A stretch of DNA of 64,000 nucleotides from Nocardia bhagyanarayanae (GTDB taxonomy: Bacteria; Actinomycetota; Actinomycetes; Mycobacteriales; Mycobacteriaceae). Under the pieces are notes generated by a model. It saw only the letters and a list, made by a program, of their open reading frames with translations, had not been told where the DNA came from and ran no database searches. The DNA lies in assembly GCF_006716565.1 (NCBI RefSeq), contig NZ_VFPG01000001.1, forward strand, positions 3,472,001 to 3,536,000, read 5' to 3'. A program made the translations under genes and the position numbers. Below, one piece after another: positions 9,532-56,536 of this stretch (its first letter is position 1; every line of letters begins with the position of its first letter).

Positions 9532-10320
9532 TCAGGCCGGGTTGCGGTAGTCGGGCTTGCGCTTCGCGACGAACGCGTCCACGCCTTCCCTGCCGGTACG
9601 GCTGTTCGCCGCCGCGGCGATGAAATCGCGCTCCAAGTCCAGCTGTTCGCTCAGCGATGCTGAATTCGAATGTGCCAGCAGCGATTTGATGCTGGCGTAG
9701 GTGGAGCGCGGCCCGCGCGCCAGTTCCTGTGCGAGCGCGATCGTCTCGGCCCGCACGTCGGCGTCGGCCACCAGGCGGCTGAGGATGCCGAGCCGCACGG
9801 CCTCGTCCGCGTCCAGGACGGCGTCGGTGAGCAGGATCTCGGCGGCGCGCCCTGCGCCGACGATGCGCGGCAGCGTCCACGACATGCCGCCGTCGGGGCT
9901 CAGGCCGATGCCCGGATAGGCGGGGCGGAGCTTGGTGGACGGACCGCCGAGGGCGATGTCGGCGGCGCAGACCAGGCTCATGCCCGCGCCCGCCGCCCAG
10001 CCCTGTACCGCGGCGAGTACTGGAACGCGGGTCTTGTCGAGCGCGCGCACGAACGCGTGCAGATCCGTCGCCAAGCCGTGGATGTGGGCGGCGCGGTCCT
10101 CGGCGGCGGCGAAGCCGCGCACATTGCCGCCCGCGCAGAAGTTCGCGCCCGATCCGATGAGTACGACCGCGCCGATCTCCGGGCCGAGGTCGGTCAGCGC
10201 CGCGGTGCCCGCGGTGATTCCGGCGAAATCCATCGAGGTGCCGTTGGCGGCGGTGGCGATCGTGATCTGGAGGACGCCGTCGGTGGTCGTGACGTACTCG
10301 GTCTGCGCGGTGGAGGTCAT
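9532..10320 (-). CDS. Enoyl-CoA hydratase/isomerase (crotonase) family protein, PaaG-like
   Basis: Acyl-CoA-processing crotonase of 262 residues. The two oxyanion-hole segments are visible: GSGANFCAGGN near residue 65 and VQGWAAGAGMSLVCAADIA near residue 105. The usual first catalytic Glu of hydratases is missing from that second segment (GAGMSL rather than GGG-x-E-L), whereas an Asp follows in LSPDGGMSWTLPR. This pattern resembles PaaG-type ring-epoxide isomerases more than true hydratases; that is inference. The C-terminal VDAFVAKRKPDYRNPA is typical of the family. The ATG at 10320 begins the domain. Confidence 0.88.
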   Translation of the reverse strand: MTSTAQTEYVTTTDGVLQITIATAANGTSMDFAGITAGTAALTDLGPEIGAVVLIGSGANFCAGGNVRGFAAAEDRAAHIHGLATDLHAFVRALDKTRVPVLAAVQGWAAGAGMSLVCAADIALGGPSTKLRPAYPGIGLSPDGGMSWTLPRIVGAGRAAEILLTDAVLDADEAVRLGILSRLVADADVRAETIALAQELARGPRSTYASIKSLLAHSNSASLSEQLDLERDFIAAAANSRTGREGVDAFVAKRKPDYRNPA

Positions 10321-10369
10321 GAGGGGAACCCTATCGTTTGCTCGGGTCCGGCCTCGACGCTCGTTCCCG

Positions 10370-10894
10370 CTACCGGGTGGTTTCGGTCGCGCGCGCCGGT
10401 CGCACCATCCGCAGCTGCATGGCGATGGTGAAGTCCTCGACCTTGCGCGCGCCCTCCGGCGCGAAACCGTGCTTGCGGTAGAAGGCCTGGGCGCGCGGGT
10501 TGTCCTCGAACACCCACAGCGAGCACGACAGCTCGGGCGCGACGGCGGTGTCGAGCAGTTCGCGAGCCAGGCCTGTGCCGTACCAGTCGGCGCGCACGTA
10601 CAGGGCGTCGAGTTCGAGCGGCGCGACGGGCACCCGGTCGCGTGGCGGGCCCGCATGTGCGAAACCGACGACGAGACTCCCGACGACGGCCACGTGCGTG
10701 CGGTCGGGATGCGCGATGCGGACACGCTCGAAAGCTTCGGCCCGCCGGTCCACGTCGAAGGCGTCGAGGACGTGATCGGGAACCAGGCCGCGGTAGGCCT
10801 CACGCCAGCAGGCGATATGGCATTCGGCCAGGCCGCGGACATGTTCGGCGGCGAGTGGCGTGATCCGCCACGCTCGCGTGCTCAGCTCGGCCAT
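10370..10894 (-). CDS. GNAT family N-acetyltransferase
   Basis: Acetyl-CoA-dependent acyltransferase of 174 residues with unknown acceptor. It shows the GNAT layout: an N-terminal CHIACWREAYRGLVPD helix region, VVGFAHAG strand, LDALYVRADWYGTGLARELLD as motif A (acetyl-CoA pyrophosphate loop, here YGTGLA), and LWVFEDNPRAQAFYRKHGF as motif B, the standard tail. The ATG at 10894 was selected because the longer frame upstream lacks homology. It lies 49 bp upstream of the crotonase gene and may be co-transcribed with it. Confidence 0.85.
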   Translation of the reverse strand: MAELSTRAWRITPLAAEHVRGLAECHIACWREAYRGLVPDHVLDAFDVDRRAEAFERVRIAHPDRTHVAVVGSLVVGFAHAGPPRDRVPVAPLELDALYVRADWYGTGLARELLDTAVAPELSCSLWVFEDNPRAQAFYRKHGFAPEGARKVEDFTIAMQLRMVRPARATETTR

Positions 10895-10937
10895 GCGCTG
10901 CCTCCGGATCGTAATCTCGGAACGCCTACCGACGACG

Positions 10938-10972
10938 ACGCCCCGGCACACCCTTGTCGGGCGCCGGGGCGT
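10938..10972. terminator. Hairpin downstream of rpmB
   Basis: ACGCCCCGGC (10938-10947) is the exact inverted complement of GCCGGGGCGT (10963-10972), with a 15-base loop. It lies between the rpmB stop and the start of the GNAT gene on the same strand. No T-tract is present, as is common for actinobacterial terminators. Confidence 0.5.
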
Positions 10973-11003
10973 ATGTCTTGGTGCTGATCGACCGGCGGCC
11001 GAA

Positions 11004-11195
11004 TCAGCCGCGAACGACCTTGCCCGCCTTCAGGCAGGAGGTGCACACGTTCATGCGGCGGGTGTTGCCCGGGGCAACCTGCGCGCGCACGGTCTGGATG
11101 TTCGGGTTCCAGCGACGGTTGGTGCGCCGGTGCGAGTGCGAGACCGACTTCCCGAAGCCGGGGCCCTTGGCGCAGACGTCGCAGACGGCAGCCAT
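11004..11195 (-). CDS. rpmB: 50S ribosomal protein L28 (zinc-ribbon type)
   Basis: Structural protein of the large ribosomal subunit, 63 residues. It begins [15 protein letters not shown] and has the L28 core [16 protein letters not shown] followed by a second pair in [12 protein letters not shown]. The CxxC pairs make it the zinc-binding (C+) form. The ATG at 11195 is preceded by AAGGAG about nine bases away. The open frame extends 13 codons further upstream without homology. Zur-controlled C- paralogues exist in relatives, so this copy would be the zinc-replete one, as inference. Confidence 0.95.
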
Positions 11196-11499
11196 AGTCG
11201 CGAACTCCTTCATGTCATGTGGGGACCGCCGCACAACGATGCGGCATGTCCGGAAACAATGTCGTGATGTGCCCTGCCGACTGACGTCGACCAGCGCAGG
11301 CCAGCTTCAGGCCGCACGAGCAACCCAGCAAGGGTAGCCAATGCCGCACCGATCCGCCAAACCGGGACCCGGTCGGACGGGCCGTCCCGGCCGTCGAACA
11401 CCCCGACAGCATACCGATTCGGTGTCACGCGGCCGCTGTCGGTATCGCCAGCTAACCTGGCGGACGGCGGTGATGTGCGGGCGGTGCGAAGGGAGCGAG
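11196..11499. other. Divergent intergenic region between rpmB and the FakA-like gene
   Basis: 304 bp without a convincing gene, expected to carry promoters for both flanking genes. CCGACAGC (11403-11410) can pair with GCTGTCGG (11435-11442), while the overlapping ATACCGA (11411-11417) can pair with TCGGTAT (11439-11445). The two pairings exclude each other. I see no clear -10/-35 pair. Confidence 0.4.
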
Positions 11500-13320
11500 G
11501 TGACGGTGCCGGGGCAGCGGGAGGAGATCGACGGCGCGGCGCTGCGGGACTGGAGCCGCCTCTGTCTGGACGGTCTCGAAGAGCGACGCGCGGAGATCAA
11601 CGCGCTCAATGTCTTCCCCATCGCCGACGCCGACACCGGGACCAACCTGCTCGCCACCATGCGCGCGGCGGTCCGAGCCGCCGACGCGGCGCCGGACGAA
11701 ACGAGCGCGAACCGGGTCGCCGCCGCCTTGGCGCGCGGCGCCACCGTGGGCGCGCGGGGGAACAGCGGCATTCTCCTCTCGCAGGTGCTGCGCGGCATCG
11801 CGGAAGCGACGACGGACGGGCCGCTCACCGCCGCGACGCTGCGTTCCGCCCTGCGCCGCGCCGCCGCGCTTGTCCGCGAATCGTTGAGCGACCCGGTCGA
11901 AGGCACCCTGCTCACCGTGCTGGAGTGCGCCGCCGACTGCGCGGTGAACTGCCCCGAGGACACGCTCGCCGAGGTCGCCGTCGCGGCCGCCGACGGCGCG
12001 GCCAAGGCGCTCGGCGACACCCCATCCCAGCTCGGCGTGCTACGGGCGGCCGGTGTGGTGGACGCGGGGGCGCGCGGGTTGGTGGTGCTGCTGGACGCGC
12101 TGGTCGCCGTCACCCTCGGCGACACGCCGACCAGACCCGACTACTTGCCGGGTGAATTCGCCACGGCGGCAGGCGGTTCGGACGATGCCACGGAGGTCGA
12201 CGGCGCGCACTTCGAGGTCATGTACCTGCTCACCGACACCGACCTGGCGCGCGTTACCCGCCTGCGCGAGCGCCTCGCCGAACTCGGTGATTCCGTGGTC
12301 GTGGTGGGCGACGGCAGTGGAAATTGGTCCGCGCACGTGCACTGCGCCGACGCGGGCGCGGCCGTGGAAGCCGGACTCGCGGCGGGGGTCGTGCGCGATA
12401 TCCGCATCGAAAGCTTCGCCATCACGGCACCCATCGGCCGCGATCACCTCGAAGCGCCGCGGTCCGATGAGAACCACGCCGATCGAGCCAGCGCCGATGG
12501 ATCCGATGAGAACCACGCCGATCGGGCGTGCGCCGATCGGTTCCGGTCCGATGAGAACCACGCCGGTCGGACGCGCGCCGATCGGTCCTGGACCGGCGAG
12601 AGCCACATCGATCGGCCCCGCGCTGATCGGTCCCGGAGCGGCGACAGTCACGCCGATCGGGGCCCGGCCGATCGCGGTGTGCTCGCCGTCGCCGCTGGAT
12701 CCGGCGCCGCGGCGCTGTTCGAGGCCGCTGGCGCGGTGGTGCTCGACGCGCACCCGGTGACCTCGGCCGCGCTGCTCACCGCGATCCGGCGGATGCCGCA
12801 CCGCGAGGTGCTGGTCCTACCCAACGGCGCGCTGCCCGCGCACGAACTGGTCGCCGTCGGTGTCGCCGCGCGCGACGCGCACCGCGACGTACTGCTGCTG
12901 CCGAGCGGTTCCATGGTGCAGGGCCTGGCGGCGCTGGCGGTGCACGATCGCGGCCGGATCGCCGTGGACGACGCGTTCGCGATGTCGGAGGCGGCCGCGG
13001 CCACCCGGTGGGGTTCGCTGCGCGCGGCCACCGAGCGCGCGCTGACCATGGTCGGCACCTGCGAGCCGGGCGACGGGCTCGGCCTGGTCGGCCACGACGT
13101 GGTGGTGATCGACAGCGACGTGCGCGGCGCGGCGCTGACACTGCTGGACCGGATGCTCGGCCTCGGCGGCGAATTGGTCACCCTGCTGATGGGCGTGGAC
13201 GCGCCCGCCGGGCTGGCCGAGGAGTTGAGCGCGCACATCGCACGAGGCTTCCCCGGCGTCGAGGTCGCGGTGTATTCCGGTGGCCAGCAAGGGGATCTGG
13301 CGCAGATCGGGGTGGAATGA
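11500..13320 (+). CDS. DAK2/FakA-like (DhaL-domain) kinase with a repeat insertion
   Basis: Family known from Firmicute FakA, which phosphorylates fatty acids bound to FakB; the actinobacterial substrate is not established. The N-terminal DhaL domain holds the Mg-binding motif NVFPIADADTGTNL near residues 35-48 and GARGNSGILLSQVLRG near 86-101. GVVDAGARGLVVLLDAL closes the domain. The C-terminal half (VMYLL, VLVLPNGALPAH, VTLLMGVDAPAG) matches the FakA middle and C-terminal domains. Between these lies a repetitive Asp/Arg/His-rich linker at about residues 322-391. GTG at 11500 follows AAGGGAG by about four bases. In M. tuberculosis the corresponding locus (Rv2974c/Rv2975c) also lies beside recG. 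606 residues. Confidence 0.88.
   Translation: MTVPGQREEIDGAALRDWSRLCLDGLEERRAEINALNVFPIADADTGTNLLATMRAAVRAADAAPDETSANRVAAALARGATVGARGNSGILLSQVLRGIAEATTDGPLTAATLRSALRRAAALVRESLSDPVEGTLLTVLECAADCAVNCPEDTLAEVAVAAADGAAKALGDTPSQLGVLRAAGVVDAGARGLVVLLDALVAVTLGDTPTRPDYLPGEFATAAGGSDDATEVDGAHFEVMYLLTDTDLARVTRLRERLAELGDSVVVVGDGSGNWSAHVHCADAGAAVEAGLAAGVVRDIRIESFAITAPIGRDHLEAPRSDENHADRASADGSDENHADRACADRFRSDENHAGRTRADRSWTGESHIDRPRADRSRSGDSHADRGPADRGVLAVAAGSGAAALFEAAGAVVLDAHPVTSAALLTAIRRMPHREVLVLPNGALPAHELVAVGVAARDAHRDVLLLPSGSMVQGLAALAVHDRGRIAVDDAFAMSEAAAATRWGSLRAATERALTMVGTCEPGDGLGLVGHDVVVIDSDVRGAALTLLDRMLGLGGELVTLLMGVDAPAGLAEELSAHIARGFPGVEVAVYSGGQQGDLAQIGVE
12463..12672 (+). repeat. In-frame 45-bp tandem repeats inside the FakA-like gene
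   Basis: The unit beginning TCCGATGAGAACCACGCCG recurs at 12463, 12502, 12547, 12592 and 12637; the last two are diverged. The steps are 39, 45, 45 and 45 bp, all multiples of three. Each encodes a variant of SDENHADRxxADRxR, rich in Asp, Arg and His. The block links the two halves of the protein and is probably a flexible spacer grown by slippage. Confidence 0.85.
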
Positions 13321-44734: not shown

Positions 44735-45823
44735 TTATGCGCTCTCCACAAAAATTTTTCCATGCCCGTCGGGCGTGGCGAATTTCAGCAAACTTACAGC
44801 TTCCGCTCGGAGGGCGGCCTCGTCCGCCGCGGAGAGCGGATGCCAGGGCGTGATGCGCACGGTGTCGTCCTCCAGCGCCCAGCGGCCGTGCACGAATCCG
44901 TCGACGAGGTACATCGGCACGCCCGCCGAGGCTTCCTTCGCGGTGCGCTGGCGATCCTCCTCGCTGATCACCCTGCGGCGGTCCTTGTGGCCGAGCAGCG
45001 CGTTGTCGAAGGCGGGCAGGAAGCGCACCGGGACGTCGAGATCCGGATCGGCCAGCGGCGCCTCCGGGAGGTCGAACAGCACGCGGTGCCGGTCGTCGGT
45101 GTAGACAACCAACTCCGAGCGCATCTCGTCGACCACCTCGGCGAGCCGGGTGATGCCCGCCCACGCCTGCATGTCCGCGACGGTCGCCGGACCGAAGGCG
45201 GCGAGATAACGCCGGATGAGCGCGGCGGGGTCGGGCTCGGCCATCGGCGCGCCGATCCACTCCTCGGCGAGACCCACGGTGACGTAGCGGTTGCGCCACC
45301 GGCCCCACGCCCCGGTGTCCGGGCCGTGCGCGAGCGGGACGAGCAATTCGACGGTCTCGGCGAGCCTGCGGACGTGCCGGTCCGGGAACCGATCGGCGAG
45401 CAGTTCGCCGAATTCACTACGGCTCAATCGCTTTCCGGCCAGGAGTTCGCGGCCCGCCGCGGCGAGCTCGGCCAGATCGATGCCGTCGATCTCCTCGCGG
45501 TAGTACGCGGCTTTCAGCGCCGCGTCGACCACCGGCTGCACGGTCGGGCGCAGCCAGCGGAAGTCGGCGCTGTCGGCCAGATGCACGGTGCGGCGAATCA
45601 TGATGGAGCGCACCAGTTCTCGATCGCGCAGCAGTGTGGCGAGGTCGTCGTGCCGGAACTCGGCCAGGCGCGTCCACAGGCCGATGTAGGGCCAGTTGGG
45701 TTCCTGGCCCTGCACCGCTACGAGGTGCCTGACGAGCTCGAACGGCGTCAGATCCACCCGCTCGACCAGCTTCTGGCGCAGCAGCAGGGTCCGGTTCAGC
45801 TCGCGTAGCGATAGTTCCGTCAT
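44735..45823 (-). CDS. Winged-helix DNA-binding domain protein (HTH_42/DUF1006)
   Basis: 362-residue member of the AlkX/YcaQ-related superfamily, some of which are DNA glycosylases for interstrand cross-links. MTELSLRELNRTLLLRQKL and HLVAVQGQEPNWPYIGLWTRL are the N-terminal signature. RTVHLADSADFRWLRP near residue 77, ATVADMQAWAGI near 218 and LPAFDNALLGHKDRRRV near 276 mark the three winged-helix units. The YcaQ catalytic QxD motif is not evident: the corresponding region here is VQGQEPN. Thus regulator or DNA-binding function is as likely. The C-terminal 25 codons lie in AT-richer DNA than the rest. Confidence 0.85.
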   Translation of the reverse strand: MTELSLRELNRTLLLRQKLVERVDLTPFELVRHLVAVQGQEPNWPYIGLWTRLAEFRHDDLATLLRDRELVRSIMIRRTVHLADSADFRWLRPTVQPVVDAALKAAYYREEIDGIDLAELAAAGRELLAGKRLSRSEFGELLADRFPDRHVRRLAETVELLVPLAHGPDTGAWGRWRNRYVTVGLAEEWIGAPMAEPDPAALIRRYLAAFGPATVADMQAWAGITRLAEVVDEMRSELVVYTDDRHRVLFDLPEAPLADPDLDVPVRFLPAFDNALLGHKDRRRVISEEDRQRTAKEASAGVPMYLVDGFVHGRWALEDDTVRITPWHPLSAADEAALRAEAVSLLKFATPDGHGKIFVESA

Positions 45824-45883: not shown

Positions 45884-46324
45884 TCAGACCGGCTCGGGCC
45901 GCATGCGCAGCGGCACGGCGATCCGGTTCCAGAGATTGATCATCGCGGTGATCGCGACCAGGCCCGCTCGCGCGCCCTCGTCGAAGTGCTTTTCCACCTC
46001 GGCCCAGATCTCGTCGCTCACGCCGTGCTCGCCGAGGCGGGTCACGGCTTCGGCGTAGGCCAGCGCGGCACGCTCGGCCTCGCTGTAGAGAGCCGACTCA
46101 CGCCAGGCGTCGAGCTGGAAGATTCGCTTCTCGGTCTCACCCGCCAGGCGCGCGTCGGTGGTGTGCATGTCGATGCAGTACAGGCACCCGTTGATCTGCG
46201 AGGCGCGGATCTTCACCAGTTCCAGGATCACCGGGTCCAGCGGCCCGCGCCGGATCGCGCCCTCGGCGGCGATCCACGCCTGATAGACCTCGGGCGCGAG
46301 TTCCGGCAGCTTCATCCGTGACAT
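45884..46324 (-). CDS. Carboxymuconolactone decarboxylase/AhpD family protein
   Basis: 146-residue alkylhydroperoxidase-like protein. The redox motif GCLYCIDMH holds Cys47, Cys50 and His54, the AhpD arrangement (E/x-x-C-x-x-C-x-x-x-H), so peroxidase or disulfide-reductase activity is plausible. YSEAERAALAYAEAVTRL and AMINLWNRIAVPL are standard. ATG at 46324 follows AAAGGA by seven bases. ECF41 sigma factors are often paired with this family; the one in this window is 28 kb away. Confidence 0.9.
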   Translation of the reverse strand: MSRMKLPELAPEVYQAWIAAEGAIRRGPLDPVILELVKIRASQINGCLYCIDMHTTDARLAGETEKRIFQLDAWRESALYSEAERAALAYAEAVTRLGEHGVSDEIWAEVEKHFDEGARAGLVAITAMINLWNRIAVPLRMRPEPV

Positions 46325-46410
46325 GCGGTCGTCCTTTCGTCGAGATTTCGCCTTACCCAGGAGAGACGAGACAACGCCGAGGAATGTGACAACGCGGGCT
46401 CGGACACGAC

Positions 46411-46440
46411 GATGGCCCGGGACGTCGCGCCCGGGCCATC
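46411..46440. terminator. Terminator at the end of the transporter/flavoprotein operon
   Basis: GATGGCCCGGG (46411-46421) is the exact inverted complement of CCCGGGCCATC (46430-46440) with an eight-base loop. It lies 14 bases after the last stop of the minus-strand operon. Confidence 0.8.
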
Positions 46441-46454
46441 GGTGTCGATGCGGC

Positions 46455-47480
46455 TCAGCTCTGCTTCGGTTGATCGGCGCGGTAGAACCACTCCGCGAGA
46501 TCGAAGTCCTTGCGGATCTTGCCCTGGTCGACGAGGAACTGCTTCGTGCCGGTGAGTAGCTGGACGCCCGCCTCGGGGAACAACGACTCCGGAATGTACG
46601 AGGGCGTCGCGGTCGCCCGTACCACGGCCTCCGGCGCTTTGGACTGTCCCACTTCGTAGTTCACGTAGTCGTCCCAGTGCGTCCGCGCGTAGGCGTTGGC
46701 CTCGGTGAGGATCGCTTGCCAGGCAGGCCCGAACTCCGGATGGGTGTCGAGGAAAGCTTGGCTGCTCACGGCCGATGAGGTGCCGCCGAGGCCGGGATGG
46801 TTCGCTCGCACCGAGTCGATCAGCCGGAAGCCCTTGGCCAGGAAGGATTGCAGGAACGACGACGGGTTCACGTCGGGCAGCGCCGTGGCCGCGATGTCGC
46901 CGTTGTTCAGCGGCGCCTCCGAATCGGCCGAGAGCAGGTGGATCAGATCGGCTTGCACCCCCGCCTCGCGCAGCGCCCCCTGTAGATACCGGTCGATGTA
47001 CGAGCCGGACGGGACCCCGATCTTCTTGCCCGCCAAATCCTTGAGCGAGGTGATCGACGGGTCCTTCACCACCACACCGGCATTCAGGCCGACGGCGTTG
47101 ATGGCGAGCAGCCGCGTCTGCAGACCGCTGCCGCGGGCTATCAGGGCCGGAGTGTCGCCGTAGCTCGCCACGTCCAGCTTCCCGCCGACCAGCGCCTGGT
47201 TCAGGTCCGGCCCGTTCGGGAAGCTGAAGACCTCGATGTTCCGCACGCCGAGCGGTTGCAGCGCGGGTAGCAGGGCGCCGCGCTGATGCGCGAAGCCGAG
47301 CGTGCCGGTGAGCACGTTGCCGGTACCGATGACGCCGATGCGCAGCGTCTGGATCTCGGCGCGGGTCGCCGAATCGTCGGTGCCGGAGCCGCAGCCGGTC
47401 AGCACGACGGTGGCGGCGGAAAGCAGGGCGGCGACGAGTGGCCGCAGGGTACGCATGGGGAAACGGTTCGCTTTCTTCAT
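46455..47480 (-). CDS. Sulfonate/nitrate-type ABC transporter substrate-binding lipoprotein
   Basis: 341-residue solute-binding protein of the SsuA/NrtA group. The signal peptide ends with the lipobox LTGC (Cys30), so it is a membrane-anchored lipoprotein. The mature protein begins LRIGVIGTGNVLTGTLGFAHQRG, then shows LVGGKLDVASYGDTPALIARG near residue 97 and SLKDLAGKKIGVPSGSYIDRY near residue 150, all typical of the family. ATG at 47480 overlaps the ferredoxin stop as ATGA. The ligand could be an alkanesulfonate or another small organic anion. Confidence 0.88.
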   Translation of the reverse strand: MKKANRFPMRTLRPLVAALLSAATVVLTGCGSGTDDSATRAEIQTLRIGVIGTGNVLTGTLGFAHQRGALLPALQPLGVRNIEVFSFPNGPDLNQALVGGKLDVASYGDTPALIARGSGLQTRLLAINAVGLNAGVVVKDPSITSLKDLAGKKIGVPSGSYIDRYLQGALREAGVQADLIHLLSADSEAPLNNGDIAATALPDVNPSSFLQSFLAKGFRLIDSVRANHPGLGGTSSAVSSQAFLDTHPEFGPAWQAILTEANAYARTHWDDYVNYEVGQSKAPEAVVRATATPSYIPESLFPEAGVQLLTGTKQFLVDQGKIRKDFDLAEWFYRADQPKQS

Positions 47481-47818
47481 GATTCGATCAGCCGTGGCGG
47501 CGGTGTGCCGTGCGGCAGTTTCGGGCCGACCGCGACGAGGCTGCCGGGGGTCCGGCCGCGCCCCCAGCCCAGCTTTTCGCGGTAGCGCCCGATGTGGTGC
47601 TCCGGGATCGCGGCGTCCGCGGACAGCGGCGTGGATTCCGGGTCGACGTAGAGCGCGTCGGCCGGGCAGTACGCCTCGCACATGAAGCAGGTCTGGCAGT
47701 CGGATTGCCGTGCGATGACCGGTATTCCGGAGGCCGTGCGGTCGAACACGTTGGTGGGGCAGGCGTCAACGCATTTGTCGCAGCCGATGCAGTCCTCGGC
47801 GCGCAGCAGCTCGATCAC
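47477..47818 (-). CDS. AprB-like 2x[4Fe-4S] ferredoxin
   Basis: 113-residue electron carrier. Eight Cys form two cluster motifs: C10-x2-C13-x2-C16-x3-C20-P (CIGCDKCVDACP) and C41-x2-C44-x2-C47-x3-C51-P (CQTCFMCEAYCP). The ADALYVDP sequence after the second motif resembles AprB, the beta subunit of adenylylsulfate reductase. The C-terminal ~50 residues contain GRYREKLGWGRGRTPGSL. It overlaps the flavoprotein upstream (GTGA) and the binding protein downstream (ATGA), so it is almost certainly the redox partner of the flavoprotein. Confidence 0.9.
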   Translation of the reverse strand: MIELLRAEDCIGCDKCVDACPTNVFDRTASGIPVIARQSDCQTCFMCEAYCPADALYVDPESTPLSADAAIPEHHIGRYREKLGWGRGRTPGSLVAVGPKLPHGTPPPRLIES

Positions 47819-49410
47819 GACGCCACCGCCAGGGTGGTGTTGCGGGCGGGTGTGGTGCCGGTCCACACCGCGTCCAGTCCGCCGGACAGGACATGATGGT
47901 GCTGCCCCGGATCCTGTTCGGGGTGGTCGGCGCGCTTGCTCATACCGCGGGTCTCGGTGCGCGCCAACGTCGAGGCGTACATCAACCGGCCGACCGCGGT
48001 GATCGCCGCGGCCTGCCTGGCTCGAACGCGGTCGTCGCCGGTGTGCCCGCCGAGCCCATCGCTCGCGCGCCGCCAGATCGCGTCGAGTTCGGCCAGCGCC
48101 GGACGTATCCGATCGCCGTGGCGCAGGTAGTTCTTCTCGAACGGGATCAGCTCCGCCTGTGCCGCCTCGACCACCTCGGACGCCGCCACCGGATCGGATC
48201 CGCTGGGACGCAGACCGACCCGGCCCGCGCCGCGCAGCCGCCCCTCCGCGCCGCGCCCCTCGCGCAGCGCGAACCGGGCCGCGCCCGCGCCCGCCCAGCT
48301 GCCCGAGGACATGGCCCATGCCGAATTGTGGCTGCCGCCGCCGGTGAAGCCCCCGCAGATGCGCTCCCTGGTCGCGGCGTCGCCCGCCGCGTACAGGCCC
48401 GGCACGGTCGTCGCGCAGTCGTCGTCGACCACGTCGATGCCGCCGGTGCCGCGCACGGTGCCCTCGGCGAGCAGATCGACCTCGAAGCGGTCGGTGAACG
48501 GATCGATGCCGCGCCGGTCGAACTGGAGGAAGAAGTTGGGCTGGCCGAGACGCATCTGCTCCTGCACGGCCGCGTCGGCACGGTCGAGTTGCGCGAACAC
48601 CTTCTCGGTCAGGAGGGTTCGCGCGATCACCGAGCGGCCCTTGGTCGAGCCCGCGCCCTCCAGCACCCGGCCGTCCTCGTGGAAGAAGGTGGCGTAGCCG
48701 TAGTAGGCGGTCTTGGTGATGGTGGAGCCCTTGGGCACGATGGCGTAGGCGTTGGAGAACTCCATGCCGGAGAAGCGCGCGCCCACCTCGGCGGCCATCA
48801 GCGCGCCGTCCCCGGTGTCCACGTTGGTGCCGAGCGCCTTGGAAAGGAACGCGCAGCCGCCGGTGGCGAGTACCACCGCGCCCGCGGTGATCCGATAGTC
48901 CCGTTCTGCCTGGCGCTGGTAGCCTGCCGCGCCGCGCACCGTGCCCTCGTCGTCGACCAGCAGCTCCAGCGCGGGGGAGTGATCGAGGATGCGGACGCCG
49001 ATCCGCTTGAGCCAGGCCCGCATTCGGCGCATGTACTCCGGACCTTGGACGCCGGTGCGGAGCTGCTCGCCCGTAGTCGGATCGACGGGGAACGGGTAGC
49101 GGCCCTCGACCGCCAGCCGATTCATGTTGGCGTAGGTCTGATCCAGCACCCGGTCCATCCAGTAGTGGTCGGCCAGGTGCCCACCGAGCGCCTCGCGGCT
49201 GGCCTTGGCGTTGGCGCGGGCGGTCGCCTCGGGTGCGACGTACCAGACGCCGGTGCCGGACGGTGCCGTCGCGCCGCTGGTCCCGCAGTAGCCCTTGTCC
49301 ACCAGGGTCACCTCGGCGCCCGCCTCGGTCGCGTGGATGGCCGCCCACGCTGCGGCGGGGCCGCCGCCGATCACCAGGACATCGGTGCTGGTCTGCCATG
49401 GTTCGTTCAT
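47815..49410 (-). CDS. AprA/fumarate-reductase-like FAD flavoprotein
   Basis: 531-residue flavoprotein of the succinate dehydrogenase/fumarate reductase flavoprotein family. GGGPAAAWAAIHATEAGAEV (residues 15-34) is the FAD-binding Rossmann motif, and GLYAAGDAATRE near residue 363 the second FAD motif. Near residue 385 the sequence SAWAMSSGSWAGAGAA resembles the SSGSFAEGR segment of adenylylsulfate reductase AprA, not the HGANRL...NSL of fumarate reductases. GSTKGRSVIARTLLTEKVF near 254 lies in the capping domain. No sat or aps genes adjoin. An AprAB-like complex acting on the imported sulfur compound is inferred. ATG at 49410 overlaps the ATPase stop. Confidence 0.88.
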   Translation of the reverse strand: MNEPWQTSTDVLVIGGGPAAAWAAIHATEAGAEVTLVDKGYCGTSGATAPSGTGVWYVAPEATARANAKASREALGGHLADHYWMDRVLDQTYANMNRLAVEGRYPFPVDPTTGEQLRTGVQGPEYMRRMRAWLKRIGVRILDHSPALELLVDDEGTVRGAAGYQRQAERDYRITAGAVVLATGGCAFLSKALGTNVDTGDGALMAAEVGARFSGMEFSNAYAIVPKGSTITKTAYYGYATFFHEDGRVLEGAGSTKGRSVIARTLLTEKVFAQLDRADAAVQEQMRLGQPNFFLQFDRRGIDPFTDRFEVDLLAEGTVRGTGGIDVVDDDCATTVPGLYAAGDAATRERICGGFTGGGSHNSAWAMSSGSWAGAGAARFALREGRGAEGRLRGAGRVGLRPSGSDPVAASEVVEAAQAELIPFEKNYLRHGDRIRPALAELDAIWRRASDGLGGHTGDDRVRARQAAAITAVGRLMYASTLARTETRGMSKRADHPEQDPGQHHHVLSGGLDAVWTGTTPARNTTLAVAS

Positions 49411-50138
49411 TGGTCGGCTCCTGTCGGTGCGTCGGGATTCACGCCGAGTGCGAGCAGCAGCCGGCGGCGGAGGGCGGAGAATTCGGGATCGATCACCGAG
49501 CGCGGGCGCGGGATGGCGATGTCGAATGATTCGGCGATGCGGCCGTCGCGCAGGACGAGGGCGCGGTCGGCGAGCAGCAGCGCCTCTTCCACGTCGTGGG
49601 TGACCAGCAGGACCGCGGGCCGGTGCTGCTGCCACAGCCGCGCTACCAGCGCTTGCGCCTTGAGTCTGGTCAACGCGTCCAGCGCGCCGAACGGTTCGTC
49701 GAGCAGCAGCAGATCCGGGTTGCGCACCAGCGCGCGGGCCAGCGCGACGCGCTGGGCTTCGCCGCCGGACAGCGTCGCCGGCCACACCTCGGCTTTCGCC
49801 GCGAGGCCGACCTCCTCCAGCGCCGTCAGTGCGCGCTCGCGAACGCCCTTCCCGTCGACGCCGAGTATCACGTTGCGCCACACGGTGATCCACGGGATCA
49901 GCCGGTGTTCCTGGAAGACGATTGCCTTGGAGCGCGGCGCCTCGAGCGTGCCGGTGAAGCCGCTGTCCAGCCCGCCGATGGCGCGCAGCAGCGTGCTCTT
50001 GCCGGAGCCGCTTGCGCCGAGCAGCGCGACGAATTCGCCGGGGGCGATGTCGAGATCGACGCCGCGCAGCACCGCTCTGCCGTCGAAGGAGCGACCCGCG
50101 TCACGGACGCGGACCCCGGAATGGATCGTGGTCGTCAT
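49407..50138 (-). CDS. Sulfonate/nitrate-type ABC transporter ATPase
   Basis: 243-residue ATP-binding subunit of the SsuB/TauB group. Walker A is GASGSGKST (residues 41-49), the Q-loop is IVFQEHRLIPW near residue 73, the signature LSGGEAQRVALARAL is near 123, and Walker B LLLLDEPFGALD is near 143, with the switch His in THDVEEAL. ATG at 50138 lies three bases after the permease stop. Energises import with the neighbouring permease and lipoprotein. Confidence 0.94.
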   Translation of the reverse strand: MTTTIHSGVRVRDAGRSFDGRAVLRGVDLDIAPGEFVALLGASGSGKSTLLRAIGGLDSGFTGTLEAPRSKAIVFQEHRLIPWITVWRNVILGVDGKGVRERALTALEEVGLAAKAEVWPATLSGGEAQRVALARALVRNPDLLLLDEPFGALDALTRLKAQALVARLWQQHRPAVLLVTHDVEEALLLADRALVLRDGRIAESFDIAIPRPRSVIDPEFSALRRRLLLALGVNPDAPTGADQ

Positions 50139-50140
50139 CG

Positions 50141-50983
50141 CTACTCACCCTCGAATCCGGTGCGCCAGGACAGGAATCGGCGTTCGAGGGCGCGCACGAG
50201 CAGATCGCTGAGCAGGCCGAGCACCGCGTAGATCACCAGCACAAGGAAGATCTGATCGGTGCGCAGGAACTCCTTGGCGTCGTTCATCAGGAAGCCGAGA
50301 CCAACGGGGGTGGTCTGCATTTCGGCTACCACCAGCGCGAGCCAGCCGATGCCGAGCGCTTGGCGCAGCCCGACGAAGATCTGCGGCAGGGCGCCGGGCA
50401 GGATGATCCGCCAGGTCAGCTCGAACCGGCCGAGGCCGAGCGATTCGGCGGCTTCCACCAGCCTGCGGTCCACCGAGCGGATGCCCGCGAAGACATTGAG
50501 ATAGATCGGGAAGATCGGCGCCACGGTGATCAGGGCGATCTTGAACGAGTCGCCGATGCCGAACCAGATGATGAACACCGGGAGCAGCGCGAGCGCGGGC
50601 AGCATGCGCAGCGCTTGCACGGGAGCGTTGATGAGATCCTCGGCAACCCGGAGCAATCCGGCCGCCGCGCCGAGCACCAAGCCGATCGTGATGCCGAGCG
50701 AGAGACCGAGCGCCACCCGGCGCGCCGAGGCCGCGAGGTGCTCCCACAGCTCGCCGGAGCGGATCAGCTCCCAGCCCGCGGCCAGCACCTCGGTGGGCGC
50801 CGGTGTCGTGACGCCGAGCCAGTCGCGGGCGCCGAGCTGCCACAGGATCAGGAGGAGAACGAGGCCGGACGACTTGCGCGCCACACCCGAGAACCGGCGT
50901 ACGAGGGCGCCCGAGCGTTCGGGCACCTGTTTCGCGACGACGGCGGGGGGCGAGGAAGTGACCGGATCCAATTGCAGCGTCAT
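50141..50983 (-). CDS. Sulfonate/nitrate-type ABC transporter permease
   Basis: 280-residue inner-membrane permease of the SsuC/TauC group with about six helices. The cytoplasmic coupling loop with the EAA motif reads EAAESLGLGRFELTWRIILP near residue 177, and VAEMQTTPVGLGFLM near residue 228 is family-typical. The first ~30 residues are a polar cytosolic tail. First gene of the five-gene operon; its promoter should be in the 246 bp between 50984 and 51229, where I see no clear -10/-35 pair. Confidence 0.94.
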   Translation of the reverse strand: MTLQLDPVTSSPPAVVAKQVPERSGALVRRFSGVARKSSGLVLLLILWQLGARDWLGVTTPAPTEVLAAGWELIRSGELWEHLAASARRVALGLSLGITIGLVLGAAAGLLRVAEDLINAPVQALRMLPALALLPVFIIWFGIGDSFKIALITVAPIFPIYLNVFAGIRSVDRRLVEAAESLGLGRFELTWRIILPGALPQIFVGLRQALGIGWLALVVAEMQTTPVGLGFLMNDAKEFLRTDQIFLVLVIYAVLGLLSDLLVRALERRFLSWRTGFEGE

Positions 50984-51827: not shown

Positions 51828-52712
51828 TCAGCCGCGGAACGGATGGGTGCGGTCCAGGTCGAGATTCAACTCGACCACGTTGACCCGCGGCTCACCGAGG
51901 AACCCGAGGGTCCTGCCCTCGGTGTGCGCCGTGACGAGCGCGCGCACCTCCGCCTCGGGAACGTCGCGCTCCCTGGCGATTCGCGGCACCTGGAGTTCCG
52001 CGTAGGCGGGGGAGATGTGCGGATCGAGGCCGCTGCCGCTCGCGGTGACCGCGTCGGCGGGCACCACCGGCTCGGCGGGCGCGTCGCCCCGGATCGGCAC
52101 GAGACGGCCGACCGAGTAGTCGACACCCGGCTCGGCGCACTCGACCCGCACGCCGCGATAGGCGTCGAGGAACGGTGTGGCGGGGCACGCCTGGTTCACG
52201 CTGATCACCTGGACCGGCCGCGAGATCTCGCCGTCGGCGTCGCGCGGTCCGATCACCGAGAGGACTGCGCCCACACCGTCTTTCGTGCAGTACGGGCGGG
52301 ATCCGTCGACCCCCTCGCGGTCGCCGATCTTCTTGCTTCGCGCGCACACGGTGCTCAGCAGGCTCGCTCGTCCCTCGGGATCGAAGACGTTCTGATCGAC
52401 GATGTCCTCGGGTCCCAGGTTGCTCGCCCCCGTGGACAGCGGGTCGTAACCGTCACCGGCGGCGGACGGGCGGCTCTGGAAGTACTGGGTGAGTGCGTTG
52501 CCGTCGGCGTCGGTGAACGACTGGCCGATCAGGCTGCTGCCCACCACCTTTCCGTCCGACTCGATCAGCGATCCGTCGGCTTTCTCGTGCAGGCCCGGCA
52601 GTTGGCCGATCGCGAAAACCGCAAGCGGATAGACGATTCCGGTGATCGCGGTCAGCACGAGCAGGGCACGCAACGCGGCCAGGTGTTGCCGGATCCAAGT
52701 GGACATACGCAT
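51828..52712 (-). CDS. kdpC: Potassium-transporting ATPase subunit KdpC
   Basis: Single-span subunit that stabilises the KdpFABC complex and raises ATP affinity. The N-terminal helix is RALLVLTAITGIVYPLAVFAIGQ. YFQSRPSAAGDGYDPLSTGASNLGP and the C-terminal GSGLDPHISPAYAELQVPRIARER are the KdpC signatures. At 294 residues it is about 100 longer than the E. coli protein; the extra length is a Cys-containing insertion of roughly residues 115-215 between these two signatures. Last gene of the operon; one base separates it from kdpB. Confidence 0.95.
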   Translation of the reverse strand: MRMSTWIRQHLAALRALLVLTAITGIVYPLAVFAIGQLPGLHEKADGSLIESDGKVVGSSLIGQSFTDADGNALTQYFQSRPSAAGDGYDPLSTGASNLGPEDIVDQNVFDPEGRASLLSTVCARSKKIGDREGVDGSRPYCTKDGVGAVLSVIGPRDADGEISRPVQVISVNQACPATPFLDAYRGVRVECAEPGVDYSVGRLVPIRGDAPAEPVVPADAVTASGSGLDPHISPAYAELQVPRIARERDVPEAEVRALVTAHTEGRTLGFLGEPRVNVVELNLDLDRTHPFRG

Positions 52713-52713
52713 G

Positions 52714-54864
52714 TCAGGACATCCCGGGGAGGAGGTGGACGACGAGATCGATGAGCTTGATGCCGAGGAACGGCGCGACGATGCCGCCCAGGCCGTACAC
52801 GGTCAGGTTGCGGCTCAACAGTTTCGACGCGTGCGCCGGGCGATAGCGCACGCCGCGCAGCGCCAGCGGGATCAGCGCCACGATGACGATCGCGTTGAAG
52901 ATCACCGCGGACAGAATCGCCGACTGCGGACTGGCCAAGCGCATGATGTCGATCAGGTCCAGGCTGGGATATAGTCCGACGAACAGGGCCGGGATGATCG
53001 CGAAGTACTTCGCGATGTCGTTGGCGATGGAGAACGTGGTCAGCGCGCCGCGCGTGATGAGCAGCTGCTTGCCGATCTCCACGATCTCGATGAGCTTGGT
53101 CGGGTCGGAGTCGAGATCGACCATGTTGCCCGCTTCTTTGGCCGCCGAGGTGCCGGTGTTCATCGCTACGCCGACGTCGGCCTGGGCCAGCGCGGGGGCG
53201 TCGTTGGTGCCGTCGCCGGTCATGGCGACCAGGCGTCCGCCGTCCTGTTCCTTCTTGATCAGGGCGAGCTTGTCCTCGGGGGTGGCCTCGGCGAGGAAGT
53301 CGTCGACGCCCGCCTCGTCGGCGATCGCCTTGGCGGTCAACGGATTGTCGCCGGTGATCATGACGGTACGGATGCCCATCCTGCGCATCTCGTCGAAACG
53401 CTCCCGCATTCCCTGCTTTACAACGTCTTTCAGGTGAATCACCCCGAGCAGGCGGGCGACGCCACCGTCGATCTCGCCGACGACCAGGGGAGTGCCGCCG
53501 GAGGCGGAGATACCGTCCACCAGGACGCCGATATCGTCGGGCACCGAACCGCCGTGGGCGCGTACCCATTCGGTGACCGCGCTCGCCGCGCCCTTGCGCA
53601 GCCGATGCCCGCCGGCGAGGTCGACGCCCGACATGCGGGTCTGCGCGGTGAATTCCACCCAGGTCGCGCCGGTAAGCTCGCCGGGCGTGCGCTCGCGCTT
53701 GCCGTAGGCCTGCTTGGCGTACACCACGATCGAACGGCCTTCCGGCGTTTCGTCCGCCAGGCTGGACAGCTGCGCGGCGTCGGCCAGTTCGTCGTCCGGA
53801 ATGCCGGGCGCCGGAAGGAATTCCGAGGCCTGCCGGTTGCCGAGCGTGATCGTTCCCGTCTTGTCGAGCAGCAGCGTGTTCACATCGCCCGCGGCCTCGA
53901 CCGCACGGCCCGACATGGCGAGCACATTGCGCTGCACCAGCCGGTCCATGCCCGCGATGCCGATCGCCGACAGCAGCGCGCCGATGGTGGTCGGGATCAG
54001 GCAGACCAGCAGCGCGACCATGACGATCCCGGTGATGCCGTCGGCGTCCAGCGCCGCCGTGTCCGGCACGCCGGGGTTGTTCGCCTTCGAGAAGATGGCC
54101 AGCGGCTGCAAGGTGACGACCGCGAACACGAAGATGATCGTCAGCGCGGCGAGCAGGATGTTCAGCGCGATCTCGTTCGGCGTCTTCTGCCTGCTCGCGC
54201 CCTCTACCAGGGCGATCATCTTGTCGATGAAGCTCTGGCCCGGCTCCTGGGTGACGCGCACGACGATCCGGTCCGAAAGGACGGTGGTGCCGCCGGTGAC
54301 GGCGGAACGGTCGCCGCCGGACTCGCGGATGACCGGCGCGGATTCGCCCGTGATGGCCGATTCGTCCACGGAGGCGATGCCTTCGACCACGTCACCGTCG
54401 CCGGGGATCACCTGCCCCGCCTCGACCACCACATAGTCCCCGCGGCGCAATTCGGGTGCGGCGACCCGCTCTTCGACCACCCGCGCGCCGGGCGACCACT
54501 CGACAAGGCGGCGCGCCACCGTGTCGGTCTTGGCCTTGCGGAGCGTGTCGGCCTGCGCCTTGCCGCGGCCCTCGGCGACCGCCTCGGCCAGGTTGGCGAA
54601 CAGCACGGTGAGCCACAGCCACGCCACGATGGACCAGGCGAACACGCTCGGGTCGGCGATCGCGAGCACCGTCGACCAGACGGCGCCGACCTCCACGATC
54701 AGCATCACCGGATTGCGCCACAGTGTGCGCGGATCCAGCTTGCGCAGCGCGCCGGGCAGCGAGGTGAGCAGCAGGGCGGGGTCGAGCACGCCGCGCGCGA
54801 CCTTGCGGTCTTTCGGCTCCGGCGCCGCCTCCGGCCTGGCGAATTCCGTTGTGGTACTTGTCAT
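52714..54864 (-). CDS. kdpB: Potassium-transporting P-type ATPase subunit KdpB
   Basis: Catalytic P-type ATPase subunit of the high-affinity K+ pump, 716 residues. The phosphorylation motif [12 protein letters not shown] lies near residue 336. TGESAPV near 165 is the actuator-domain motif. [18 protein letters not shown] and [22 protein letters not shown] near 540 form the hinge region. Several membrane helices flank these. ATG at 54864; kdpA ends one base upstream. Confidence 0.97.
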
Positions 54865-54865
54865 A

Positions 54866-56536
54866 TCAGTGGATTCCCTCGGCGAGCGGCCCGAGCGCGA
54901 GCGCGGGCAGGAAGGTGAGCGCGACCAGGATCACGGTCACGCCGACCACCAGCCCGACGAACTGCGGGCGATGGGTCGGCAGCGTGCCGATCGACGCGGG
55001 CGTGGTGCCCTGCTTGGCGAGTGATCCGGCGAGCGCGAGCACGAAGACGATCGGCAGGAACCGGCCGAGCACCATGGCCAGGCCGAGTGCGGTGTTGTAC
55101 CACTCGGTGTTGCCGGTCAGACCCGCGAACGCGGAGCCGTTGTTGTTGGCGGCGGAGGTGAAGGCGTACAGCACCTCCGACAGGCCGTGCGGCCCTCCGT
55201 TGAGCATGCTCGCGCGCTGACCGGGCAGCGCCATGGCGATCGCGGTGAAGGTCAGCACCAGCAGCGGGCTGATGAGGAAATACGAAGCGGCCAGCTTGAT
55301 CTCGCGCGGCGTGATCTTCTTGCCCAGATACTCCGGGGTGCGTCCGACCATGAGGCCCGCGACGAAGACGGTGATCACCGCCAGGATCAGCATGCCGTAC
55401 AGGCCGGAGCCGACGCCGCCTGGCGCGACCTCGCCGAGCTGCATGTCGAACATGGTCATCAGGCCGCCGAGGCTGGTGTAGGAGTCGTGGAAGGAGTCCA
55501 CGGCCCCGGTGGAGGTGAGCGTGGTGGCCGCCGCGAAGGTGGCCGAATTCGCCACGCCGAAGCGGGTTTCCACGCCCTCGGTGGCCGCGCCGATGGCCGT
55601 CGGCACTGTTCCGTGGTGCTGCAACTGGAACAGATTGGTCAGCGCGATGCTGGTCAGGGCGATGGCTCCCATGACAGCCACGATCGCGTAGCCCTGCTTG
55701 GCGCTGCCGACCATGCGGCCGAAGGTGCGCGGCAGCGAGCAGGCGATGACCAGGATCAGGAAGATCTCGATCCAGTTCGTCCAGGTCGTCGGGTTCTCGA
55801 ACGGGTGCGCGGAGTTGGCGTTGTAGAAGCCGCCGCCGTTGGTGCCGAGTTCCTTGATCACCTCCTGGCTCGCGATCGGGCCGCCGGTGATCGTCTGCTG
55901 TGCGCCCGCGACGGTCTGGGCGACCTGGTCGTGGAGCTGGAAGTTCTGGACGACACCGCCCGCCACGAGCACGATCGCGAAGACGAACGCGATGGGCAGC
56001 AGGATGCGCAGCGTTCCGCGCACCAGGTCGACCCAGAAGTTGCCGAGATCGCCGGTGTGCCTGCGGGCGAAGCCGCGCACAAGCGCGATCGCGACCGCCA
56101 TACCCACCGCGGCCGAGACGAAGTTCTGCACGGCGAGCCCGGCCGTCTGCACGAGGTGGCCCTGGGTGGATTCGCCGGAGTAGTTCTGCCAGTTGGTGTT
56201 CGTCACGAAGCTGACCGCGGTGTTCCAGGCCAGCGCCGGGGTCATCTCGGTGGCGGGATCGTTCAGGTGCAGCGGCAGCTTGTCCTGGAGCAGCTGGAAG
56301 AAGAACAGGAACAGGATGCCGACCGCCGAGAACGCGAGGACGCTGCGGGCGTAGACGCCCCAGGTCTGCTCGACTTCCGGCTTCGCGCCTATGGCGCGGT
56401 AGATCAGCCGCTCCGCGCGGGAGTGCTTCGCGCTGCTGTAGACGCGGTACATGTAGTCGCCGAGTGGGACGTGCACGAGGACCAGCGCCAGGACCAGGGA
56501 CGCCATGAAGACGATCCCCGCGGTTGTCGTGTTCAC
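54866..56536 (-). CDS. kdpA: Potassium-transporting ATPase subunit KdpA
   Basis: K+-channel-like subunit that selects and passes potassium, 556 residues with about ten helices. The four pore loops are visible: [13 protein letters not shown] near residue 117, [20 protein letters not shown] near 228, the third region with [15 protein letters not shown], and [19 protein letters not shown] near 468. GTG start at 56536 directly abuts the kdpF TAG. Confidence 0.97.

Follow-up and report, generated by a model that had tools for sequence, protein, structure and literature searches.

What a flavoprotein and a ferredoxin do among the genes of a sulfonate-type importer is the question raised by an operon of Nocardia bhagyanarayanae, which lies on the minus strand at 46455-50983 of the 64-kb stretch of its genome analysed here (the window). 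Open reading frame (ORF) calls give five tandem minus-strand genes encoding a permease, an ATPase, a flavoprotein, a two-cluster ferredoxin and a binding lipoprotein. They confirm the order, and the four-base overlaps at three of the four junctions, that an earlier sequence-only reading had described: ATGA between ATPase and flavoprotein, GTGA between flavoprotein and ferredoxin, and ATGA between ferredoxin and lipoprotein, with the permease and ATPase genes separated by a 2-base gap. That reading took the pair for an AprAB-like enzyme acting directly on the imported compound in a new route replacing SsuD. Comparison with protein families, related loci and published systems argues rather for an asfABC-type sulfonate sulfur-scavenging operon, a reading that is given a probability of about 0.78. 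Systems of this kind are already known, and asfA has been reported from genera to which this one is related; the chemistry proposed below for the pair is tentative.

Relation to known asf systems

The asf genes have been described in Pseudomonas putida S-313, where asfRABC encodes a substrate-binding protein, an ABC (ATP-binding cassette) transporter, a reductase/ferredoxin pair and a LysR regulator, and where asfA mutants lose the use of aromatic sulfonates while keeping that of aliphatic ones (PMC4267179, describing the original study by Vermeij et al. 1999; this and all other papers given by PMC number are cited from the available parts of their text). The same source has asf complementing ssu and mentions oxygenation of the C-S bond. 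In the literature AsfAB is taken to pass electrons to a monooxygenase, and asfA-type bacteria are already known in Rhodococcus and Williamsia (PMC4267179; PMC9694294). By description, the window operon shares with S-313 asfRABC the flavoprotein/reductase, the ferredoxin, the substrate-binding protein and the ABC transporter, but differs in that its permease and ATPase genes precede asfA in one operon and that no LysR gene has been seen adjoining it.

In the window, the AsfA-family flavoprotein (47815-49410, minus strand; 531 aa, ATG start at 49410) is FAD-binding (flavin adenine dinucleotide) and has the predicted fold of the FrdA/AprA superfamily. The AsfB-family ferredoxin (47477-47818, minus strand; 113 aa, GTG start at 47818) groups with dicluster ferredoxins in NCBIfam and Pfam and has a conserved C-terminal tail. 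Its two [4Fe-4S] motifs are complete CxxCxxCxxxCP motifs, as had been noted before, and all eight cysteines are invariant in the 16 aligned sequences, the window's included. An indirect sequence link of the two proteins to AsfA and AsfB is provided by Cupriavidus metallidurans CH34, which has asfRAB on chromosome 2 with Rmet_4334/5 as AsfA/AsfB (PMC2864759). On the CH34 replicon, the window flavoprotein gives one strong match (928,291-929,814) and one weak match (at 895,643, E 1.6e-7). The product of the strong match is 57% identical to window AsfA over 508 residues and is placed with the AsfA-type rows by the tree described below, and the ferredoxin gene directly after it encodes a protein 52% identical to window AsfB over 91 aligned residues. 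A search of the replicon finds six TauD genes, the same number as PMC2864759 lists, and linear interpolation between those matched by order to the listed Rmet_4136 and Rmet_4409 places Rmet_4334 at about 923 kb. The CH34 genes are adjacent and in the same order as in the window. The importer genes of CH34 differ in position, being downstream and on the opposite strand, and show 27-42% identity to those of the window.

Homology to AsfA, a ferredoxin gene directly downstream, and a substrate-binding protein with an ABC importer in the cluster are the features that place the window pair in AsfAB. None of the 120 matches listed is an entry named asfA, and the literature searched listed no paper that seemed to treat the biochemistry of the AsfA/AsfB pair; AsfAB was not found in the available text of PMC8557817, PMC7661421, PMC11852219, PMC13352529 or PMC10256816, and asfA occurs solely within a reference in that of PMC3506598 and PMC4070957. 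Homologues of AsfA and AsfB can stand under other names, the first as 'FAD-binding protein' or 'L-aspartate oxidase' and the second, next to it, as 'ferredoxin family protein'; such pairs have been seen in four phyla.

Conservation of the pair and its neighbourhood

Because the related loci are the best 80 of 113 and come mostly from Nocardia (43), their counts do not represent independent events; several end early at contig ends, and no neighbourhood control set accompanies them. The LLM, TauD and second importer references were taken from the same loci, the LLM class being confirmed by family model for this genome's C2 enzyme only and the TauD reference scoring 223 bits, under its 313-bit cut-off. 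The origin label of one locus titled Rhodococcus (L034) reads Gloeocapsa and looks wrong. The ferredoxin gene lies just downstream of the flavoprotein gene in all 80 loci, so the pairing proposed earlier held throughout. The five-gene order, whose conservation beyond this genome had been set as a check, is kept in 23 of the 80 loci and at least five genera (Nocardia 11, Gordonia 6, Rhodococcoides 2, Actinomadura 1, Actinoplanes 1, unassigned 2). An LLM-type monooxygenase lies near asfAB in 42 of the 80 loci, a TauD-like gene in 17 and an Ssu/Tau-like permease or binding protein in 38; some sulfonate-type neighbour is present in 65 of 80. The earlier link to sulfonate sulfur assimilation is supported.

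Plasmids give a similar picture. Among 59 plasmid records with a match, seven regions were examined, two of them without annotation, and each of the five annotated regions has an ABC importer, an LLM monooxygenase or TauD close to the pair. These regions span Actinomycetota, Bacillota, Cyanobacteriota and Pseudomonadota, with neighbours named sulfonate-type in Nostoc and SsuA-family in Azospirillum. At the whole-genome level, 4 of 396 Actinomycetota genomes and 64 of 251 genomes of the family have a match at E 1e-60 or better, tallies that include this genome and paralogues of 43-48% identity and that may be lower bounds because three or five candidates were scored in most listed genomes. Double asfAB sets around one importer are present at five loci (L076, L083, L086, L087, L109) and also on a Paenibacillus plasmid, and in such sets the second AsfA belongs to a divergent subtype with 43-53% identity to window AsfA.

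Importer type and flavoprotein family

The importer is of the type found in the SsuABCD/E alkanesulfonate system, from which the operon differs in having neither SsuD nor SsuE, an SsuD-like gene lying elsewhere in the genome. The best-scoring NCBIfam families of its three proteins, all encoded on the minus strand, are SsuC for the SsuC/TauC-like permease (50141-50983; NF008470, 219 bits, cut-off 347; PF00528, 98.7 bits), SsuB for the SsuB-like ATPase (49407-50138; NF008420, 232 bits, cut-off 395; PF00005, 98.5 bits) and SsuA for the SsuA-like substrate-binding lipoprotein in the AsfC position (46455-47480, 341 aa; TIGR01728 SsuA_fam, 102 bits, cut-off 163.5), each below its curated cut-off. 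The lipobox of the lipoprotein, judged by eye, is LTGC; its closest solved protein is 2x26, an aliphatic sulphonate-binding protein (E 2.5e-10), and the solved proteins near it carry sulfonate-, nitrate- and taurine-binding names. An importer for a non-sulfur anion or cofactor, beside an AsfAB unrelated to sulfur, would fit the scores below cut-off and the nitrate- and taurine-binding relatives, but is improbable given that SsuC, SsuB and SsuA are the best-scoring families and that the neighbourhoods of relatives are mostly sulfonate-type.

Identification of the flavoprotein as AprA does not stand. The protein belongs to the FAD_binding_2 superfamily and lies below every NCBIfam cut-off shown, with TfrA the best (89 of 718 bits) and AprA far lower (NF005331, 46.2 bits, cut-off 557). 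The SSGSWAG motif behind the claimed likeness is present at residues 368-374, but it aligns with VFGRRAG of SdhA and TEGRIAG of AprA, whose own SSGS stands five residues earlier in this alignment, which depends on gap placement; comparison with FrdA gives the same register, and the motif is probably an offset look-alike. An APS (adenylylsulfate) or PAPS (phosphoadenylylsulfate) reductase of the AprAB type, working in sulfate assimilation, would likewise combine a flavoprotein with a dicluster ferredoxin, and the predicted AsfA model matches FrdA, PAPS reductase alpha and AprA across nearly its whole length, 8a8o and 1jnr among them, with about 20% identity to the Methanothermococcus PAPS reductase 8a8o. 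That reading is nevertheless very hard to sustain, and AprA identity has been rejected, on the NF005331 score, the clade separate from the AprA rows described next, the sulfonate-type importer in the operon, and what we take to be the Asn and His ligands of AprA, which have no match in the alignment at AsfA.

In an IQ-TREE tree of 54 rows, for which the program warns of long branches, KstD foremost, a branch of support 100/99 splits 40 AsfA-type rows (the window, other actinobacteria, CH34, Paraburkholderia, Azospirillum, Paenibacillus, Nostoc and Sphingobium) from eight others. These comprise three labelled AprA-like (L116-L118), which are over the NF005331 cut-off, and five labelled AprA (L119-L123), which have the KFSSGS motif and fall under it (355-367 bits). 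As drawn, the tree places the SdhA/FrdA-type and NadB rows alongside the AprA ones, beyond a branch whose support is 97/86; the labels of this genome's SdhA, FrdA-type, NadB, KstD and HEAT rows were assigned by eye. That the protein is an ordinary fumarate reductase or ketosteroid dehydrogenase, placement among which the earlier reading had named as refuting it, or a succinate dehydrogenase or L-aspartate oxidase, is scarcely credible on this evidence. SdhA, FrdA and NadB have been rejected by the missed cut-offs, by tree position and by the ligand columns: in a 19-row alignment, Gly46, Tyr222, Glu316 and Thr356 of AsfA stand opposite His, His, His and Arg of SdhA/FrdA, presumably the His that binds FAD covalently and the His and Arg residues that bind the dicarboxylate. 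The exclusion of KstD is weak, since the single KstD row forms a very long branch beside the AsfA group; the branch leading to the 40 AsfA rows without KstD has support 93/95.

Monooxygenases and the role of the pair

The earlier claim that an SsuD-type partner is missing holds for the window: no SsuD monooxygenase was found in the operon by NCBIfam search of the window ORFs, and the window holds none of the genome's 36 listed TIGR03860 and 34 listed TIGR03565 matches. It does not hold for the genome, where the TIGR03860 search gives six NtaA/DmoA-family genes over cut-off and the TIGR03565 search a full-length SsuD-like gene at C1:5,383,086 (439 bits, under the 518-bit cut-off), and the absence of a desulfonase is therefore a matter of gene position. 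One NtaA/DmoA-type gene, at C2:1,101,792 (595 bits, cut-off 280), is adjoined by permease, ATPase and binding-protein genes. Its product is 86-88% identical to the monooxygenases that four Nocardia loci (L026, L027, L029, L031) encode no more than about 1.3 kb from asfA, which makes it a candidate partner of AsfAB. With the pair matching a known one, with monooxygenases in the genome and with LLM enzymes near so many asfAB loci, the notion of a new route replacing SsuD is not supported.

In the mechanism that we infer, the SsuABC-like importer, made up of the AsfC-like lipoprotein, the permease and the ATPase, would take up sulfonates, which are probably aromatic or bulky. Within a complex of AsfA and AsfB, electrons would pass between the FAD of the former and the two [4Fe-4S] clusters of the latter, and AsfAB would support desulfonation, the C-S bond being cleaved most likely by a monooxygenase dependent on flavin mononucleotide (FMN) and encoded elsewhere, either the NtaA/DmoA-type enzyme at C2:1,101,792, which has importer genes of its own, or the SsuD-like protein at C1:5,383,086. 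Sulfite would then be released and assimilated. The electron-supply role of AsfAB in this scheme stands at about even odds, and it overlaps with the view of AsfAB as a catalyst, which shares the operon assignment.

Several observations weigh against this account. Membership in AsfAB rests on the CH34 annotation, itself presumably homology-based, the S-313 pair having been compared by description only, and the minus-strand gene order in CH34 shows no obvious fit to AsfA as 4334 and AsfB as 4335. No LysR gene was seen among the called neighbours of the CH34 pair, although the available text of PMC2864759 speaks of asfRAB, so the asfR of that paper has not been located; nor was one seen among the neighbours of the window operon that were read (AhpD/CMD and AlkZ-like proteins, one protein that matches nothing in Pfam, and genes kdp-like by eye), where no dedicated LysR search was made. 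None of the sought contexts is present at 15 of the 80 loci, and 20 of the 23 five-gene loci have no LLM monooxygenase or TauD in the available stretch, only three having one. Nearly all of the importer is missing at this locus from N. lijiangensis and N. xishanensis, the relatives with the highest identity. The predicted fold of AsfA, finally, is that of substrate-converting flavoenzymes, which would poorly suit a mere reductase.

The last point and the five-gene loci without a nearby oxygenase favour a role for AsfAB as a catalytic flavin/iron-sulfur oxidoreductase with its own active site and no electron-supply chain, in which electrons would pass via AsfB and an imported sulfonate, or a sulfur or aryl intermediate derived from it, would be reduced (or oxidised) at the flavin, as in AprAB or PAPS reductase, SsuD-type enzymes being unneeded for its step. 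Pfam shows no separate NAD(P)H domain in the flavoprotein: the Pyr_redox_2 match covers the FAD region and is confined to positions 2-118 of a 291-position profile. The two chains of 8a8o are matched by AsfA and AsfB, though AsfB also resembles many other dicluster ferredoxins, and Cys186, Arg320 and Cys332 are among the AsfA-specific residues invariant in 31 of 31 AsfA sequences, though confidence in the model is low immediately beyond Cys186 (residues 187-192 and 194-200, predicted local distance difference test (pLDDT) <50). Against such a catalyst stand the LLM monooxygenases near asfAB and in this genome and the published placing of asf as a complement of ssu with C-S oxygenation, and it is regarded as possible rather than probable. 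The AsfA fold match to FrdA and PAPS reductase, together with importer operons lacking a nearby desulfonase, means that the published description of the pair merits direct test. If AsfAB were catalytic, the five-gene operons would perform a step of a new kind; to our knowledge, no known desulfonase does the step proposed for it.

Importer loss, a second AsfA and flanking genes

The preferred reading of an asfABC-type operon need not imply that the pair depends on this importer. In N. lijiangensis, compared between the same flanking genes (L010 9938-11949 against window 46393-50954), two deletions leave almost nothing of the permease/ATPase pair or of the lipoprotein gene, while asfAB remains open and the region upstream of the permease is kept; the loss of the importer with retention of asfAB indicates that the pair is not strictly tied to it. 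The ratio of nonsynonymous to synonymous substitution rates (dN/dS) between N. lijiangensis and the window is 0.13 for asfA and 0.11 for the flanking alkZ-like gene, pairwise values that include the time before the loss. In N. xishanensis NBRC 101358 (L052, about 9966-11802), nearly all of the importer is missing and AsfA is without its first 96 residues, a loss that may be strain-specific because another xishanensis entry (P0001) is full length.

A second AsfA copy with 47% identity is encoded in the N. bhagyanarayanae genome at C1:2,778,137 (L009 8111-9808), and no match to the window's ferredoxin was found in the 18 kb read around it. Several genomes of the same genus carry matches of similar identity (43-48%).

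Downstream of the operon and on the same strand, Pfam identifies an AhpD/CMD-family protein (45884-46324) and an AlkZ-like DNA glycosylase (44735-45823). At window positions 51828-56536, three minus-strand genes resemble kdpC, kdpB and kdpA by eye, no family search having been made for them.
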